Shown here: piece after piece, positions 1 through 6,514 of the stretch
How positions within the stretch are numbered: position 1 is the first letter of the stretch
How the letters are laid out: each line of letters opens with the position of its first letter
Origin: a bacterium
Lineage (GTDB): Bacteria; Blakebacterota; Blakebacteria; Blakebacterales; Blakebacteraceae
NCBI GenBank assembly: GCA_025774615.1
Contig: JALGVQ010000262.1
Coordinates: forward strand, 1-9,604
Reading direction: 5' to 3'
DNA length: 9,604 bases
Made by a program: the position numbers and the translations under genes
The notes under the pieces: model-generated
Told to the model about the DNA's origin: nothing
The model's input: only the letters and a program-made list of their open reading frames with translations
Database searches by the model: none

Positions 1-1310
1 TGGGACGCCACTGGTGCTGATCAACGGGGGGCCGGGTGGCACGCATCACGGTTTTCACCCATGGTTCTCCCGTGCCGCTGCTTTTTCCCGGGTCATCTAT
101 TATGACCAGCGGGGGTGCGGACTCTCCGATTGGGAGCCGGGTGAAGGGTATTCGGTCGATCAGGCCATTGAGGATCTCGACACCATCCGTGAAACACTCG
201 GCTACGAACAGTGGGTGGTGCTCGGGTACTCCTACGGCGGTTTCCTGGCACAATGGTACGCGGTGCACTATCCGGAGCGGGTGGCTGGTCTCGTACTGCT
301 GGGAGCTTCCACCGGGATGTGGGATGAGGGTGGCAGCGGGCGGCAGTACGATTTCATCTCGGATGAAGAGCAGGAGAGAATGAGGGAGATCGGTTCCCAG
401 CTGCGGGAATTGAGAGTGGAAAACAACTGGTCGTACAACGACTACATGCGGCTGATCGTCTATAACAACCATCTCAATGGAGACTGGAAACGACAGAATT
501 TCTACCGGCCCTCCCTCCCGGGACGAGATCGCGCAACTGGCGCTCTATGAATGGAACCATGACAGCAGGTTCCGCAGTCCGGTCAGTTCGAGTCAGAACA
601 GGATAGATCTCACCGGTGCGTTCGAAGGGTGTCCGATACCGACCCTCATTCTGGAGGGTAGATGGGATCTCACCTGGAGCACTGAAAAACCGGAAATACT
701 GCTGAACAACCACCCGGGAGCGGAACTGGTGATGTTCGAGGACGCCGGACACGGGATCTACAGCGAGGAGACCGACAAGTTTTTCCGTGTCCTGAAGAAG
801 TTCGTGAAGCAACTACCGTCGGTGGGCGATTCTGAGGTGTCAGCCTGGCAGACCCGGTTGGAGGAGTGGGATCGGATGCGGATATCCTCACCCGTATATG
901 TTCTGAGAGGGAACGACTGGGGGCGGAAGGCGAACGAGGAACTTGTTGCAGTCTATTCGAGGGAGTGGCTGGCCGATTTCGACGAACCGGGTGAGTTCCT
1001 GAAGATCGGTTTTGCGCTCTATGACCTTGAGGAATACGCGGAAGCCCTTGAAGTGTTCGGCCGGATGGAGAGGACTTCAGAAGCTGAGGGGAACGAGGAA
1101 TACCAGTGCATGGCCATCATCTGGCAGGGGCACATGCTCGATCTGGCTGACAGAAGGAGCGAGGCGATCACCCTCTATCAGAGGGCGGCTGACATGCAGA
1201 TCGAGGATGAGTGGATGCACAGCCAGTTCGGATTGAACTACTCTCTCAGCCCCTGGGCGGCCGAGCGGGTGAGGACACCGTTCACGAGGGTTGAGAACCA
1301 GCAGAGATGA
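1..1310 (+). pseudogene. Alpha/beta hydrolase (peptidase S33 / proline iminopeptidase type) with C-terminal TPR-like domain; 5'-truncated by window, frameshifted
   Basis: The reading frame is open from base 2 (G-T-P-L-V-L-I-N-G-G-P-G-G), so the start lies outside the window. The oxyanion-loop motif GGPGG and the nucleophile elbow GYSYGG (Ser codon 230-232) lie in one frame, which ends at 550. The acid Asp in GRWDLTW (666-668) and the His in DAGHGIY (750-752) lie in the next frame, which runs to the TGA at 1308-1310. The two halves join at a CCCT tandem repeat (509-519); removing 4 bases gives the continuous reading FYRPS-RDEIAQLALYEW, as expected for the cap region. S33 enzymes release N-terminal residues such as proline from peptides, but the substrate here is unknown. 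After the hydrolase domain about 165 extra residues follow, with two TPR-like helical pairs (about 990-1079 and 1098-1196), which is unusual for the family. The gene converges on the next with an 18-base gap. As written, the product loses the Asp and His of the triad. Confidence 0.85.
509..519 (+). repeat. 4-bp tandem duplication (CCCT x2.75) at frameshift
   Basis: CCCT occurs at 509-512 and 513-516 and is followed by CCC. The hydrolase frame breaks exactly here. Deleting one 4-base unit, or alternatively one base, restores the frame. The 4-base deletion gives the more natural peptide (PSRDEIAQ), but a one-base error in a C-rich run cannot be excluded. Confidence 0.6.
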
Positions 1311-1328
1311 ACGGATCACAGACAAATA

Positions 1329-2315
1329 TCAGCGGAAAGAGATCCGCAACTGCATCGAGAGTCCGGCCGACCCGGATCGACCGCTCTGACCTGAAACACC
1401 TTCAAGGCTGAGGAAAAACGGACTGCTATCGGGTCGTTCCCGGGCCAGGAGCAGAGAGTCAACGACGTTGAAGAGGTAAGCTGCCGCTACCAATCCGGAA
1501 GCCCGTTTCCTCCTGATCTTGACTGCCCGCCGCTCTGCCCTGGCACGCAGGTGATGTTCCCAGTTCTCATCCACCACCTGATAGAACACTTCGGCGGTTA
1601 CAGCGATGCCACCGATAGTATGGTCATATTCCCCGGTCGCCCAGTTGAAAGGCGTCTCAAGACCCTCCCGCGAGAATTCGAAAGGGTCGGGTTTCGGGGT
1701 GGAGATAGCGTACAGGATACTGAATCCCATCAACCCGGCGCTGACCAGGGCATGAATCGGTTCCTCTTTCTGCAACTGTCCCACGCCAGGAATCAGAATG
1801 GAGAGGAAGAAGGCGCTGTCAGCGGAGGTGTAGTTCCGCGCCCGTGCCAGCTCTGCCGTTATCTCTCCGGCTCCATTGAAGAGTGCTTCAGCATTCACGA
1901 ACGAATAGTTATGAACGGATGCGATCTGACGGGTATCCTCATCGAATATCACCAGATGGAACTCATAACCGCCATCATCGGATTGCGTGAGGACGCCTCC
2001 GATGAGGTAGGCTGCACCTGCATCTGATGCGGTCCTCTCCATCTCATTCGTACTGGAGAGGATTTGTCTGACAGAGCGATTCTCGGTCAAACCGTCGATC
2101 TGGGACTGTTCCAGCAGTGCCTTGCCGGCAGGTAGTCTCATTCCACTTATCAGTATGTTCTGGAATGCTTCCGCGGTGTCCCGGATGCTCTCGTCTGACA
2201 CGATCGGAAGGAAGGCGATGCGCTGCAGGGTCATTTGCTGAGCCTCGGCGGGCAGATGTCCTGCGGACATGACCAGGCCGGCCAGGAGCAGCGCCCGTGC
2301 GATCCCGCGCTTCAT
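1329..2315 (-). CDS. Exported protein with CsgG/FlgO-like N-terminal region and DUF5683-like membrane domain
   Basis: The start is set at 2315 because its ATG overlaps the stop of the upstream gene as ATGA, and a GGGAGG ribosome binding site (2323-2328) lies 7 bases before it. An ORF start 27 bases further upstream adds residues ahead of a good signal peptide and is less likely. The product is 328 residues. Residues 1-25 are a Sec signal peptide (MKRGIARALLLAGLV..., probable cleavage after AEA). Residues 30-160 resemble the small alpha/beta fold seen in CsgG/FlgO/TolB-N-like proteins (IAFLPIVSDES, then AAYLIGGVLT and a strand of the FHLVIFDEDT type). From about 165 the pattern SAFFLSILIPGVGQL, a hydrophobic segment, and later LVAAAYLFNVVDSLLLA matches the DUF5683 arrangement (small membrane domain with a PGxGQ signature). 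The molecular function is unknown; an envelope role is inferred. It is translationally coupled to the propeller lipoprotein gene. Confidence 0.8.
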   Translation of the reverse strand: MKRGIARALLLAGLVMSAGHLPAEAQQMTLQRIAFLPIVSDESIRDTAEAFQNILISGMRLPAGKALLEQSQIDGLTENRSVRQILSSTNEMERTASDAGAAYLIGGVLTQSDDGGYEFHLVIFDEDTRQIASVHNYSFVNAEALFNGAGEITAELARARNYTSADSAFFLSILIPGVGQLQKEEPIHALVSAGLMGFSILYAISTPKPDPFEFSREGLETPFNWATGEYDHTIGGIAVTAEVFYQVVDENWEHHLRARAERRAVKIRRKRASGLVAAAYLFNVVDSLLLARERPDSSPFFLSLEGVSGQSGRSGSAGLSMQLRISFR

Positions 2316-3433
2316 GGCGATGCCTCCCATCGTCCGTACCACAATTGCTGGGCAGGGCGATGATACACGCTCACATGGACTATCCCGTCAGCATCAATGC
2401 GCATATCGTACCTGCCGTCGGGATCGATGTCACCGATCTGTCCCATTCGCTCCCACCCCGCTCCGGTCGAATGCCTGCTGAGGTGGATCGTGTTCCCTTT
2501 CACGTAGGTGAGCCAGAGTTCACCCCCCGCTCCGGTTCGCATGATGATCGGACTGTTACGTACACCGGTGTCGATATCCTCACCTCCGGTGTCCTTCAGT
2601 ACGTTCTCCCGCCCGAGATAGACCAGATGTGAGATATCGTTGTTGTCGAAACCGATCGCGATCGACCGGTCTCCATACTTGAGGGAATCGTAACTGTCAA
2701 TGTTGACGATATACTCTCGCGTCCACGGCCCCGATCCATCCGCAGCGGACTGTTTGACGATCGCGAAAGAGCTGGTGACGGCAGTGCCGTCATAATCCTT
2801 CTGGATCAGGGCGATGACGGGACCGTTGGGACCGATCGCGAAACCGATAAATGGTCGCATGTAGGTGAGGCTGAGTTCGCTGAGTCTCTGCCATCCTCCC
2901 GGTGCTTTCCACCAGTAGTTCACACTGCCTGAATGGGAGCCTGTCCGGGATGCCGTGAAGATCTCCACCATGTGGATTCCGTCAGGCTGTTCGATCATCG
3001 AAGGAGACTCACCGCGGGAACTCAATGGACCGAGATGCTCAAAGGTCCAGCCGGTCCCGTCCTGGTATGCGTACCTCAGTCTCCGGTTCCAGGTGTCCTG
3101 GTAGGCCAGGTGCAGGTGATCGTTCTGGTCGATGCAGATGGTTACATACTCGCCTACCCACCCGACGGTATCGATTTCAGTGATCGACCAGTCTCTGGCT
3201 GCAAGGCGGCGGGCGAGATGGAGGTCATTGTGCCGCAGATCATTGAATGCGACATAGACGGTACCATCTGATGTAGTCGCGAGACTGCTGTGGATACCAA
3301 CTTCCCGCCCGGAAGCGACAAGTTCGAATGTCCAGCCACTTCCGTGCGGTTTCGTGATTCCGCCCGAACCACATGCGGAGAGCGAGAGCGATACAAGCAG
3401 GAGGCTGAGCAGTGTCGGGGTACACTTTTTCAC
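2312..3433 (-). CDS. Beta-propeller-like repeat lipoprotein
   Basis: The 373-residue product starts with GTG (3431-3433) and has a lipoprotein signal peptide (MKKCTPTLLSLLLVSLSLSAC; lipobox L-S-A-C, lipidated Cys21). The mature part contains repeated blade-like units of the pattern G-x-x-x-S-L/I-A-x-D-x-x-G-x-x-x-x-A-Y-x-D followed by x-L-x-Y-A and a W. Examples are SSLATTSDGTVYVAFND...LHLARR, VTICIDQNDHLHLAYQD...LRYAYQDGTGW and MRIDADGIVHVSVYHR near the C-terminus. Such repeats usually fold as a beta-propeller; I can place about five or six of them, with divergent middle ones. No catalytic residues stand out, so binding or scaffolding is more likely than enzymatic activity. The gene lies 79 bases downstream of the GH127 stop, has its own candidate promoter, and overlaps the DUF5683-like gene by 4 bases, so these two probably form one operon. 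Confidence 0.8.
   Translation of the reverse strand: MKKCTPTLLSLLLVSLSLSACGSGGITKPHGSGWTFELVASGREVGIHSSLATTSDGTVYVAFNDLRHNDLHLARRLAARDWSITEIDTVGWVGEYVTICIDQNDHLHLAYQDTWNRRLRYAYQDGTGWTFEHLGPLSSRGESPSMIEQPDGIHMVEIFTASRTGSHSGSVNYWWKAPGGWQRLSELSLTYMRPFIGFAIGPNGPVIALIQKDYDGTAVTSSFAIVKQSAADGSGPWTREYIVNIDSYDSLKYGDRSIAIGFDNNDISHLVYLGRENVLKDTGGEDIDTGVRNSPIIMRTGAGGELWLTYVKGNTIHLSRHSTGAGWERMGQIGDIDPDGRYDMRIDADGIVHVSVYHRPAQQLWYGRWEASP
2323..2328 (-). promoter_or_regulatory. Ribosome binding site GGGAGG for the DUF5683-like gene
   Basis: GGGAGG on the minus strand lies 7 bases before the ATG at 2315 and inside the last codons of the upstream lipoprotein gene. Together with the ATGA overlap it decides the start and implies translational coupling. 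Confidence 0.7.
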
Positions 3434-3440
3434 GTCACGT
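3431..3440 (-). repeat. 5-bp direct repeat ACGTG overlapping the GTG start codon
   Basis: On the minus strand the sequence reads ACGTGACGTG followed by AAAAAG, and the GTG of the second unit is the start codon used. A second, out-of-frame GTG lies 5 bases upstream. Only a weak GGA-type Shine-Dalgarno precedes them. A gain or loss of one unit would change the start-region spacing. A 5-base repeat can occur by chance. Confidence 0.4.
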
Positions 3441-3446
3441 CCGTTT

Positions 3447-3462
3447 CTGAAACAGGTTTCAG
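3447..3462. promoter_or_regulatory. Perfect 16-bp inverted repeat, possible operator or 5'-UTR hairpin
   Basis: CTGAAACAGGTTTCAG has 7-base arms that pair perfectly around a 2-base centre. It lies between the candidate promoter at 3481-3508 and the GTG start at 3433, about 12-27 bases after the likely transcription start. That placing suits a dimeric repressor site. A 2-base loop makes a stable RNA hairpin less likely. It is followed by CTTTT on the + strand, but no + strand gene ends nearby, so I do not call it a terminator. Confidence 0.4.
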
Positions 3463-3480
3463 CTTTTCATGATTCGGGAG

Positions 3481-3508
3481 AGTCTAGCGATTCAGCCGGC
3501 CCGGTCAA
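3481..3508 (-). promoter_or_regulatory. Candidate sigma70-like promoter for the propeller lipoprotein operon
   Basis: On the minus strand TTGACC (3503-3508), a 16-base spacer and TAGACT (3481-3486) resemble -35 and -10 boxes. It starts 5 bases after the GH127 stop codon, which suggests that the lipoprotein and DUF5683 pair can be transcribed independently of GH127. This is motif matching by eye; promoters in this group of bacteria may differ from the E. coli consensus. Confidence 0.4.
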
Positions 3509-3512
3509 GGGG

Positions 3513-5451
3513 TTATCTGCCCGCCACCGGAAGCCACACTACCATCTCACCCATTCCCCGGTGCGCCCAGGCGTAATAGGGGATCGCCTCGAACGTCCAG
3601 GGACCGCCAGTGCTCCGGATCACCCGGATCCCGCCGAGAAGGTCGGCCCGCTCCTCTGTCTCGAGATCGGGATGCTCGGGCAGGACGAGGCTCTGCACGT
3701 CACCACTCTCGCTGTCGAGCCATTCGACACAGTAGACCACAGTAGACCAGTGGGCCGCGCTGCAGTGAGAGTTTGCCGCGATCAGCTACCACGTTCTCAT
3801 GGGCTGCGACAGTACGGATCGGCATCGGAAGGTCGAGAACGACCTCGTCCTCTTCCTGCCAGCGTCGCCGGATGATGACATATCCGTTCTCTACCGTCAG
3901 GGGGACCTGCACACCATTGATCTGCAGTATCGGTTCCTCCGTATTCTGGTCGGTAAACCGGTAGAGATCACTCGGTACTGCTTCATTCCGGGCCCATCCA
4001 GGTATCCGGATATGGAGGGTGAACATCCCCGATCGCCGTTCAGGTGCCACCTGGAGAGTTACCCGCCCATCCCACGGATACCCGCTCTTCTGAGATATCC
4101 GGACAATACCCCGATCCGTTCTGACGATCCCGGTCCCACTGATGAAAAGGTTCACATACAGGTCATTGCCGGCGTGGGCATAGATGTATCCCGGGAGTGA
4201 TGGAAGGAAACGCACAACATTCGAGGGACAGCAGGCGCAGGGGAACCAGGGGGCCCGCTCCTCACCGTTCACGGTCGCGAGACGGTTGGAGTAGAAAAAC
4301 CGGTCTCCCTCGAGCGAGATGCCGGAGAGGAACGCGTTGTAGATGACACGCTCGGCGACATCCATGTACCGAGCGTCGCCGTGCAGGAGGAACATGCGGT
4401 GGTTCCACATGGCGTTGGCGATGGAGGCACAGGTCTCAGAATAGGCGGTTTCGTTCGGCAGGGCATAAGGGGTACTGAATCCTTCATTCCCACCGGTCGC
4501 CCCGATCCCGCCGGTCACATAGAGCTTTGTGCTGACTGCATCCTGCCAGATAGCGTCGATTGCCTGTACGTACCGGTCGTCGCCGGTCAGGGCTGCGATA
4601 TCAGCCATCCCCGAGTAGAGGTAGGCCGCTCTCACCGAGTGACCGACTGCCTCGGTCTGATCTGTCACGGGAATATGGTCCTGACTGTACTCCCCGTACA
4701 GTTGATGACCTTCGGCGTCCCCCCGCATGTCGAGGAAGAACTTTGCCAGGTTGAGGTAGCGCGGCTCACCGGTCAGTCGGTACAGCTTTCCGAGGGCTAT
4801 CTCGATCTCCTGATGTCCGGGTGGATTTCTCATCCCGTCGGGACCGAACACTTCCTCCACCAGGTCGAGACTCCGGAGGACTACGTCGAGCAGTTGTCGC
4901 TTGTCGGTCGCCAGGTAGTAGGCGATCGCTCCCTCGATCATGTGGCCAAGATTGTAGAGCTCGTGTCCATGCTCGATATGTGACCAGCGTTCCTCGCCGC
5001 CAGGCGGCATGTGATCGGGTGTCATGGCGGTGCGAGCCGTATAGAGGTATCCGTCCTCCTCCTGGGCAGCGGCGATCTTGTCGATCACATCATCGATATA
5101 CGCCTCCAGTTCAGGATCGGGGTAGAGTGCCAGGGAGTAAGCCGCGCCCTCGATGACCTTGGCCACATCGGAGTCATTGAAATAGTATCCCTGGTGACTG
5201 CCCTCCATGAGACCACCCGCGATAGCGAAGTTGTCTATCCTGCCTGTTTCCTCACACATTTGCAGCGCGTACGGGATCGTCACCTCCCGGTTCATCTCCA
5301 TCCGGGGGGACCAGAACGAATCATCGATCTCAACATCGGTGAAGGGTACGGGCTGTATCGGGTAGTCGGGCGTACCGGTCGTCCCGCAACCATTCAGACA
5401 GGTGATCCCGAGCAGAAGGATCGCAGCGACACTCTTTTTCCATGATGCCAT
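3513..5451 (-). pseudogene. GH127 beta-L-arabinofuranosidase-type lipoprotein (DUF1680), frameshifted near 3' end
   Basis: GH127 enzymes remove terminal beta-L-arabinofuranose from plant-type glycans using a zinc-bound cysteine nucleophile. In HypBA1 the key residues are Glu322 (acid/base) and the zinc ligands Glu338, Cys340, Cys417 and Cys418. Here GNEGF, YSETC and CACC supply the equivalents with identical Glu-Glu (16) and Glu-Cys (2) spacing, so the active site is complete. Start 5451 is preferred over 5466: GGAG (5461-5464) lies 9 bases upstream, and the product begins MASWKKSVAAILLLGITC with lipobox L-N-G-C (Cys22), giving an anchored outer-envelope or periplasmic enzyme. The uninterrupted frame ends at 3700 with an unrelated tail (GLLCRMARQREW). 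The true C-terminal beta domain (VYCVEWLDSESGD ... PYYAWAHRGMGEMVVWLP) lies in another frame ending at the TAA at 3513. Removing one copy of a 10-bp duplication (3728-3747) gives a continuous 642-residue protein, a usual GH127 length. A sequencing or assembly error is the alternative. Confidence 0.9.
3728..3749 (-). repeat. 10-bp tandem duplication that frameshifts the GH127 gene
   Basis: On the minus strand GTCTACTGTG occurs twice head to tail (3738-3747, then 3728-3737), with TG shared at the edge (2.2 copies). With one copy the sequence reads CTG GTC TAC TGT GTC GAA TGG (L-V-Y-C-V-E-W), the expected continuation after the GH127 block QRGPLVYC. With two copies it reads L-V-Y-C-G-L-L-C and then runs out of frame. 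Confidence 0.9.
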
Positions 5452-5460
5452 CAGCAGTGA

Positions 5461-5464
5461 CTCC
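5461..5464 (-). promoter_or_regulatory. Ribosome binding site deciding the GH127 start
   Basis: GGAG on the minus strand lies 9 bases before the ATG at 5451. The upstream in-frame ATG at 5466 is preceded only by the GGGATAACC repeat and has no good Shine-Dalgarno, so 5451 is the likelier start. Confidence 0.5.
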
Positions 5465-5466
5465 AT

Positions 5467-5485
5467 CGGTTATCCCGGTTATCCC
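5467..5485. repeat. 9-bp tandem repeat CGGTTATCC x2.1 in GH127 leader
   Basis: CGGTTATCC occurs at 5467-5475 and 5476-5484, followed by one more matching C. It lies in the 5' leader of the GH127 gene, immediately ahead of the alternative ATG at 5466. Confidence 0.75.
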
Positions 5486-5490
5486 TTTTC

Positions 5491-5512
5491 CGATCTGAGA
5501 TCGATCTGAGGT
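5491..5512. repeat. 11-bp tandem repeat CGATCTGAGAT / CGATCTGAGGT
   Basis: Two adjacent 11-base units (5491-5501 and 5502-5512) differ at one position. They lie between the candidate GH127 -10 box and its start. They could be paired binding sites for a regulator or the relic of an older duplication. Confidence 0.65.
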
Positions 5513-5524
5513 GCGCACACCGTG

Positions 5525-5530
5525 AGTATA
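5525..5530 (-). promoter_or_regulatory. Candidate -10 box for the GH127 gene
   Basis: TATACT on the minus strand matches the TATAAT consensus at five of six positions. The -35 side is poor (TGGAGC, 16 bases upstream). If used, the leader would be about 65 bases long and would contain both the 11-bp and 9-bp tandem repeats. This is motif evidence only. Confidence 0.3.
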
Positions 5531-5544
5531 CCCGGTTCCCGGTT
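5531..5544. repeat. 7-bp tandem repeat CCCGGTT x2
   Basis: CCCGGTT occurs at 5531-5537 and 5538-5544, perfect and adjacent. The second copy continues as CCCGGTTAT, the same core found in the 9-bp repeat at 5474-5482. It lies in the spacer of the candidate GH127 promoter, so a change in copy number would alter promoter geometry. Confidence 0.65.
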
Positions 5545-5554
5545 ATGCTCCATC

Positions 5555-5582
5555 GTGACTTTTACCTGATATTGGTAACAAT
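5555..5582 (+). promoter_or_regulatory. Weak candidate promoter for the SGNH hydrolase gene
   Basis: GTGACT (5555-5560), a 16-base spacer and AACAAT (5577-5582) each match four of six consensus positions. The likely transcription start would be about 65 bases before the ATG at 5653. The match is weak and is given only as the best I can see in this divergent region. Confidence 0.25.
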
Positions 5583-5633
5583 GTGCAGTCGGGTTGCGTC
5601 TTCAGGGTATGATGCCACCCGCAGTCCTGTTTC

Positions 5634-5639
5634 GGAGGA
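5634..5639 (+). promoter_or_regulatory. Ribosome binding site GGAGGA for the SGNH hydrolase gene
   Basis: GGAGGA is a strong Shine-Dalgarno match, 13 bases before the ATG at 5653. The spacing is longer than ideal, but no better start fits, and the ATG opens directly onto a lipoprotein signal peptide. Confidence 0.55.
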
Positions 5640-5652
5640 ACGCGCCCACACC

Positions 5653-6514
5653 ATGATACTGCGATCGATCGTGATAACCGTTTCGAAACGGATACTGACT
5701 CCGACCCTGCTGGTGATCGCCCTGCTGCTGGCCGCCTGCGAAGGCAATCCTGTTTTCGTGGAGGATGGATCAGGTGGATCTGAGATGGGTGATGTTGACG
5801 TCCTGTTTATCGGCAACAGTATCACCATGTGGTTCAATATGACGACGCAGTTCGAGGCGCTGGCCGACTCTGCCGGTAAATCGATCCATGTCAGCGATAT
5901 ATCGAGACTGGGGCAGCGCCTGGAGAACCATCTTGAGTTCGTCAATACCGAGGCCGCCATAAGTTCCCGCGTCTGGGATTATGTGATCCTGCAGGAATCC
6001 AACTTCGCGGTGGCCTTCCCGGAGTATCACTACCTGATGCATCCGGAGTTCAGTACGATGCGCGAATACATTCTGTCAGCCAGTCCAGACTGCAATATCG
6101 TGATGTACATGGATTATGCCCTGGAGCGTGATGTACATGGATTATGCCCTGGAGGAGATAACCCTCCTCGATACCCTGTTCACGTTTGAAACCCTGCAAC
6201 CGAGGATCCGGTCGGGAACGATCGGGTTTGCCGATCCCTACGGATTCGTCATAGCTCCGGTGGGATCAGCCTTCGGGACCCTCCGTACCGAACGGGAGGA
6301 GATTGACATCTTCGATGCCGATCGCCGGCACCCTTCAGAACCAGCGCAATACCTTCAGGCGTGTATCTACTACGCCACCATCTTCCAGGAGAGCCCGGAG
6401 GGGAATCTGTTCATGGGGAACATCCAGCCCGAGCTTGCTGCGTACCTCCAGCATGTCGCGGCCCGGATCGTGTTGAGTGAACCACAGACCTGGAATCTGC
6501 CCGATACTCCCTGA
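5653..6514 (+). pseudogene. SGNH/GDSL-type hydrolase lipoprotein, frameshifted by a 28-bp duplication
   Basis: The start is set at the ATG at 5653, after GGAGGA, because it gives a clean lipoprotein signal (MILRSIVITVSKRILTPTLL... with lipobox L-A-A-C, Cys29); the open frame extends upstream but without a signal. Block I is VLFIGNSITMW, with the catalytic Ser56 in GNS rather than GDS. YVILQES and FVIAPVGSAF are typical internal blocks. The catalytic D-x-x-H is DRRHPS (Asp codon 6320-6322, His 6329-6331), with the following YLQACIYYATIF helix. The first frame stops at 6189, before the Asp and His; these lie in another frame ending at the TGA at 6512-6514. Removing one 28-bp copy fuses them through MDYALE-EITLL into 277 residues. 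Such enzymes act as esterases or deacetylases, often on carbohydrates or lipids; the substrate is unknown. It is divergent from GH127, so joint saccharide processing is plausible but inferred. It converges on the M14 gene with a 21-base gap. Confidence 0.8.
6099..6154 (+). repeat. Perfect 28-bp tandem duplication in the SGNH hydrolase gene
   Basis: The 28-base unit beginning CGTGATGTACATGG and ending CCCTGGAG is present at 6099-6126 and again, identically, at 6127-6154. The repeat stops exactly at both edges (T versus G before the unit, C versus G after it), so no flanking microhomology is shared. The length is 3n+1, which shifts the frame. The duplicated peptide start VMYMDYALE is visible in both frames. 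Confidence 0.97.

Follow-up and report, generated by a model that had tools for sequence, protein, structure and literature searches.

Exact tandem duplications that break genes in a metagenome-assembled genome most likely reflect assembly joins and not a genetic switch

The window, i.e. the whole stretch of 9,604 nucleotides analyzed here, is the complete contig C57 of the metagenome-assembled genome G000, which comprises 3,295,596 bases (3.30 Mb) in 324 contigs and is 82% complete. The features distinguished within the window are as follows.

1-114, unstranded: 114 bp shared exactly with the end of contig C109, an assembly join left unmerged (contig-end comparison)
2-1310, plus strand: S33-type alpha/beta hydrolase gene in frames 2-550 and 477-1310, its 5′ end lying beyond the contig (upstream Abhydrolase_1 match)
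509-519, plus strand: 4-bp tandem duplication (CCCT) in the S33-type alpha/beta hydrolase gene (4-base gap in a same-genus contig)
3513-5466, minus strand: GH127 beta-L-arabinofuranosidase-like gene in frames 5466-3700 and 3785-3513 (Pfam GH127 catalytic, middle and C-terminal domains)
3728-3749, minus strand: 10-bp tandem duplication breaking the GH127 gene (10-base gap in a same-genus contig)
5545-6514, plus strand: SGNH/DUF4886-like gene in frames 5545-6189 and 6116-6514 (weak DUF4886 matches in both halves; relatives in genome G001)
6099-6154, plus strand: 28-bp exact tandem duplication breaking the SGNH/DUF4886-like gene (single copy in SGNH relatives from G001 and G000)

The head-to-tail duplications of 4, 10 and 28 bp reported in the initial annotation were all found to be exact and correctly placed. 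The shortest, CCCTCCCTCCC (509-519), has a period of 4, the second (3728-3749) has a period of 10 with 12 matched bases, and the third (6099-6154) consists of exactly two copies with a period of 28 and a junction without microhomology. A search of the G000 genome for a second copy of the 28-bp region found none. Since shuffling the sequence yields no tandem repeats with a period of at least 9 in the window, chance does not account for the 10- and 28-bp repeats. Four-base tandem repeats number 33 in the window versus 29.5 expected, and the 4-bp repeat taken alone is not beyond chance. The frame break at 509-519 is nevertheless real, because a contig of the same-genus genome G001 (G001:C232) has a 4-base gap there; the event could be genuine slippage. 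Exact tandem repeats of 9 and 7 bp are also present in the noncoding DNA between the GH127 and SGNH genes (5467-5485 and 5531-5544).

The fragments flanking each duplication were compared separately with relatives, without mending the sequence. In all three genes (S33, GH127 and SGNH) they align, in different frames, to neighbouring parts of a single family or relative, in agreement with the claim that each duplication breaks the frame of a single gene. Both S33 fragments match one open reading frame (ORF) of G001, with 83% and 72% identity. The upstream frame of the GH127 gene encodes the catalytic and middle domains and positions 1-27 of the C-terminal domain, and the other frame encodes positions 12-71 of that domain (Glyco_hydro127C); in most of the 75 GH127 relatives the match ends at residue 576-577 of 588. 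The weak DUF4886 matches of the two SGNH gene halves stand in the right order. In SGNH/DUF4886 relatives (approximately 35% identity) a single segment matches both copies of the 28-bp unit. One stretch of a relative's ORF is covered both by the upstream fragment, up to residue 148, and by the downstream fragment, from residue 5 onward; this relative accordingly carries a single copy.

Contig G001:C232 (JALGWK010000073, Meg22_46_Bin_213) aligns to window positions 8-4956 at 73% nucleotide identity, with gaps of 4 bases at the 509-519 site and 10 bases at the 3728-3749 site. The proposed comparison with related genomes thus revealed a single copy in a same-genus genome at the sites of the 4- and 10-bp repeats, and in more distant SGNH relatives at that of the 28-bp repeat. 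Against G001:C232, neither the aligned S33 gene nor the part of the GH127 gene that was displayed shows another uncompensated frame-breaking gap, and the remaining fragments of the broken genes stay open; over this extent, the view that the genes are otherwise intact was upheld. An ordinary pseudogene would be expected to show further decay elsewhere in the gene, and none was encountered in the aligned S33 gene or the displayed GH127 part. A second copy of the M14 peptidase gene of the window (70% nucleotide identity) is located at positions 1033-2464 of L048 (G000:C111) and has a counterpart in G001:C461.

Tandem duplications of up to 400 bp were sought in 767 kb of G000 (23% of the genome), in 237 kb of G001 and in a control set of 769 kb (74 loci). 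Simple duplications of at least 20 bp were found six times in G000, eight times in G001 and not at all in the controls; at equal rates, the chance of zero in the controls is approximately 3e-4 for G000 and G001 combined and approximately 0.015 for G000 alone. The survey of the wider genome called for at the outset therefore shows that the same class of duplication recurs outside the window, in excess over controls. Besides those of the window, the G000 sample contains frame-breaking exact duplications of 38, 76 and 35 bp, the first in an isoprenylcysteine methyltransferase-like gene (named by eye), and further exact duplications of 12, 15, 18 and 21 bp; two of the five frame-breaking duplications of at least 10 bp lie in the window, which was itself chosen for them. 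At approximately 34 duplications of at least 20 bp per Mb, G001 has about four times the rate of G000. Exact duplications of 10-49 bp that disrupt the frame were also noted at G001 loci L090, L093, L220, L223, L224, L230 and L237; the broken genes, named by eye, include those for a pyruvate phosphate dikinase-like protein (L093), an ABC transporter ATPase (L223) and a KDO transferase-like protein (L224). In the samples of G002 and G003, which represent another genus of the family (51 and 57 kb, partly masked, and too small for comparison), one 10-bp duplication was found in G003 and none in G002. Repeats of 4-6 bp were noise in the scan (in G000, 9 frame-shifting cases in the expected direction versus 22 in the wrong one), hence the genome-wide claim is limited to longer duplications.

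The duplications are of arbitrary, one-off lengths (10 to 76 bp). Of the 14 that reach 20 bp in G000 and G001, 9 have lengths that are not multiples of three, and the ratio of frame-breaking to in-frame lengths is as expected without selection on the frame. No extra matching base was present at the junction in 16 of the 25 duplications of at least 10 bp from these two genomes, compared with approximately 56% for random breakpoints; because junction matches are near this level, slippage between microhomologies is not indicated. A search of one literature collection for short tandem duplications with microhomology in bacteria found no paper.

Ribosomal protein L16 and Der are essential in bacteria, and their genes, rplP and der, are normally present in a single copy. 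In G000, a 35-bp exact tandem duplication (L071, G000:C28, 16320-16389) breaks rplP within its ribosomal protein operon, and a 76-bp exact tandem duplication (L070, G000:C27, 3814-3965) breaks der/engA. When the whole genome was searched with NCBIfam models, the rplP model hit C28 in two overlapping pieces, the der model hit C27 with positions 1-367 and then with positions 345-432, and no other full copy of either gene was found; G000 being 82% complete, a second copy may conceivably be missing from the assembly. Each gene is whole, in one open frame, in G001, and rplP is also whole in G002 and G003. As L16 and Der are essential, these lesions can be neither fixed alleles in living cells nor tolerable OFF states. 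Near the ribosomal protein operon there is also an array of 15-bp repeats, of in-frame length (L071, 11684-11874).

Among the contig ends in the G000 sample, seven of eight overlapping pairs, including that of C109 and the window, overlap by exactly 114 bp. The odd pair, the right end of L202 and the left end of L205 (G000:C62 and C65), overlaps by 105 bp. No overlaps with other contigs were found for the far end of the window contig or for one end of G001:C232. Overlaps of 114 bp fit an assembly with k = 115 and an overlap of k-1. In a control scaffold with a SPAdes-type name, the flanks of an N gap are identical over 127 bp, an indication that overlaps left by SPAdes have length k. Because the published convention is the opposite, i.e. 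n for IDBA-UD and n-1 for metaSPAdes (Chen et al. 2020, PMC7111523), the assembler cannot be identified from the overlap length by itself. For Guaymas sediment metagenomes, IDBA-UD was run with --mink 65 --maxk 115 (PMC9258230), and it was also used for Guaymas samples including Meg22 (PMC10290634; PMC9727166), a Guaymas core that is the source of G001. From this we infer that G000 was probably also assembled by IDBA-UD with maxk 115, and that its source study is probably linked to the Guaymas/IDBA-UD pipeline. Chen et al. 2020 (PMC7111523) regard IDBA-UD as a suspected prominent source of local assembly errors, among them the duplication of sequence where an overlap was not merged. N gaps with duplicated flanks were sought in G000 and G001; few N gaps are present, and none is so flanked.

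The duplications are very probably local errors of short-read metagenome assembly, absent from the DNA of the organism, a strong inference that falls short of proof. Adjoining contigs or graph paths may overlap by up to k-1 (114) bases, and a join that kept part of the overlap twice would produce an exact head-to-tail copy of arbitrary length. Such a doubled overlap would fall at a random place, usually within a gene. Partly retained overlaps at joins would be the presumed origin of the duplications, and the exact step of the algorithm is likewise a presumption. As expected of such errors, the lesions ignore gene function and reach the universal, essential single-copy genes rplP and der; they are in excess within the same assembly (6 of at least 20 bp in 767 kb of G000 versus 0 in 769 kb of controls); and the longest, 76 bp, stays under the 114-bp overlap limit, without selection on the frame. 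Against this explanation stand the Ns in published unmerged overlaps, which all of these duplications lack, and the fact that both genomes with the excess (G000 and G001) belong to one genus, so that lineage and pipeline are confounded.

A lineage forming short tandem duplications at a high rate, in which the three window genes are recent pseudogenes, would account for the excess in both sampled genomes of the genus, and the three genes encode plausibly dispensable hydrolases. We consider this unlikely: rplP and der, each present once, carry the same lesions, the proportion of frame-breaking to in-frame lengths is what an absence of selection would give, and the aligned window genes show no other decay relative to G001:C232. 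The early gene decay suggested in the initial annotation is thus an unlikely explanation, since pseudogenization cannot act on the sole copies of rplP and der/engA in a living cell. That the duplications are nevertheless real, the genus forming microhomology-free short duplications at an extreme rate and surviving, even in rplP and der, through populations that mix one- and two-copy alleles or through the skipping of one copy in expression, is very improbable. Reversible switches, in which each duplication is gained or lost to turn a gene off or on, would be compatible with the exactness of the copies and with the intact appearance of the remainder of each gene. Known phase-variable genes, however, use repeated short units, whereas each site here has its own unit of 10 to 76 bp in two copies, with no such duplication at the corresponding position in the relative; junction microhomology is not enriched, and restriction to loss-tolerant genes is contradicted by the same class of lesion in rplP and der. 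The arbitrary one-off lengths and the broken sole copies of these genes leave the proposed clean on/off switches unsupported, and we assign them only a marginal probability. Expression might instead skip one copy, e.g. by translational bypassing between identical codons, for which a tandem copy supplies the take-off and landing codons; this would account for tolerance of the lesions in rplP and der. Known bypassing requires specific signals, the sites share neither sequence nor length, and assembly error accounts for the data with less, making skipping the most remote of these possibilities; even jointly, switching and skipping have very little probability. Of the interpretations offered at the outset, the assembly artefact is strongly supported by rplP and der, broken here and intact in G001, clean switches are not supported, and decay is unlikely.

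The finding is most likely a warning about draft genomes and not the discovery of a genetic switch, because the same class of repeat disrupts genes indispensable to every living bacterium (rplP and der). Joins in public metagenome-assembled genomes can imitate phase variation or gene decay. At the G001 rate, about a hundred loci would be affected per genome, which bears on gene catalogues and on claims of gene loss. A cheap check is to screen universal single-copy genes for disruption by exact tandem duplications of 10-114 bp.

Slipped-strand contingency loci resemble the present sites in that tandem repeats determine whether a gene is in frame, but they consist of many copies of short units in a fixed gene, whereas here two copies of arbitrary units occur at unrelated places, including essential genes. 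Translational bypassing of the phage T4 gene 60 type likewise involves an insert that disrupts the frame of a needed gene and has identical codons on either side; the inserts described here, known from sequence alone, differ in having no common sequence, codon or structure. The local errors described for IDBA-UD (PMC7111523) have Ns between the copies of an unmerged overlap, whereas the G000 copies abut without Ns, but the two are alike in the duplicate sequence at joins and in exact contig-end overlaps, set in the published case, and probably here, by the largest k.
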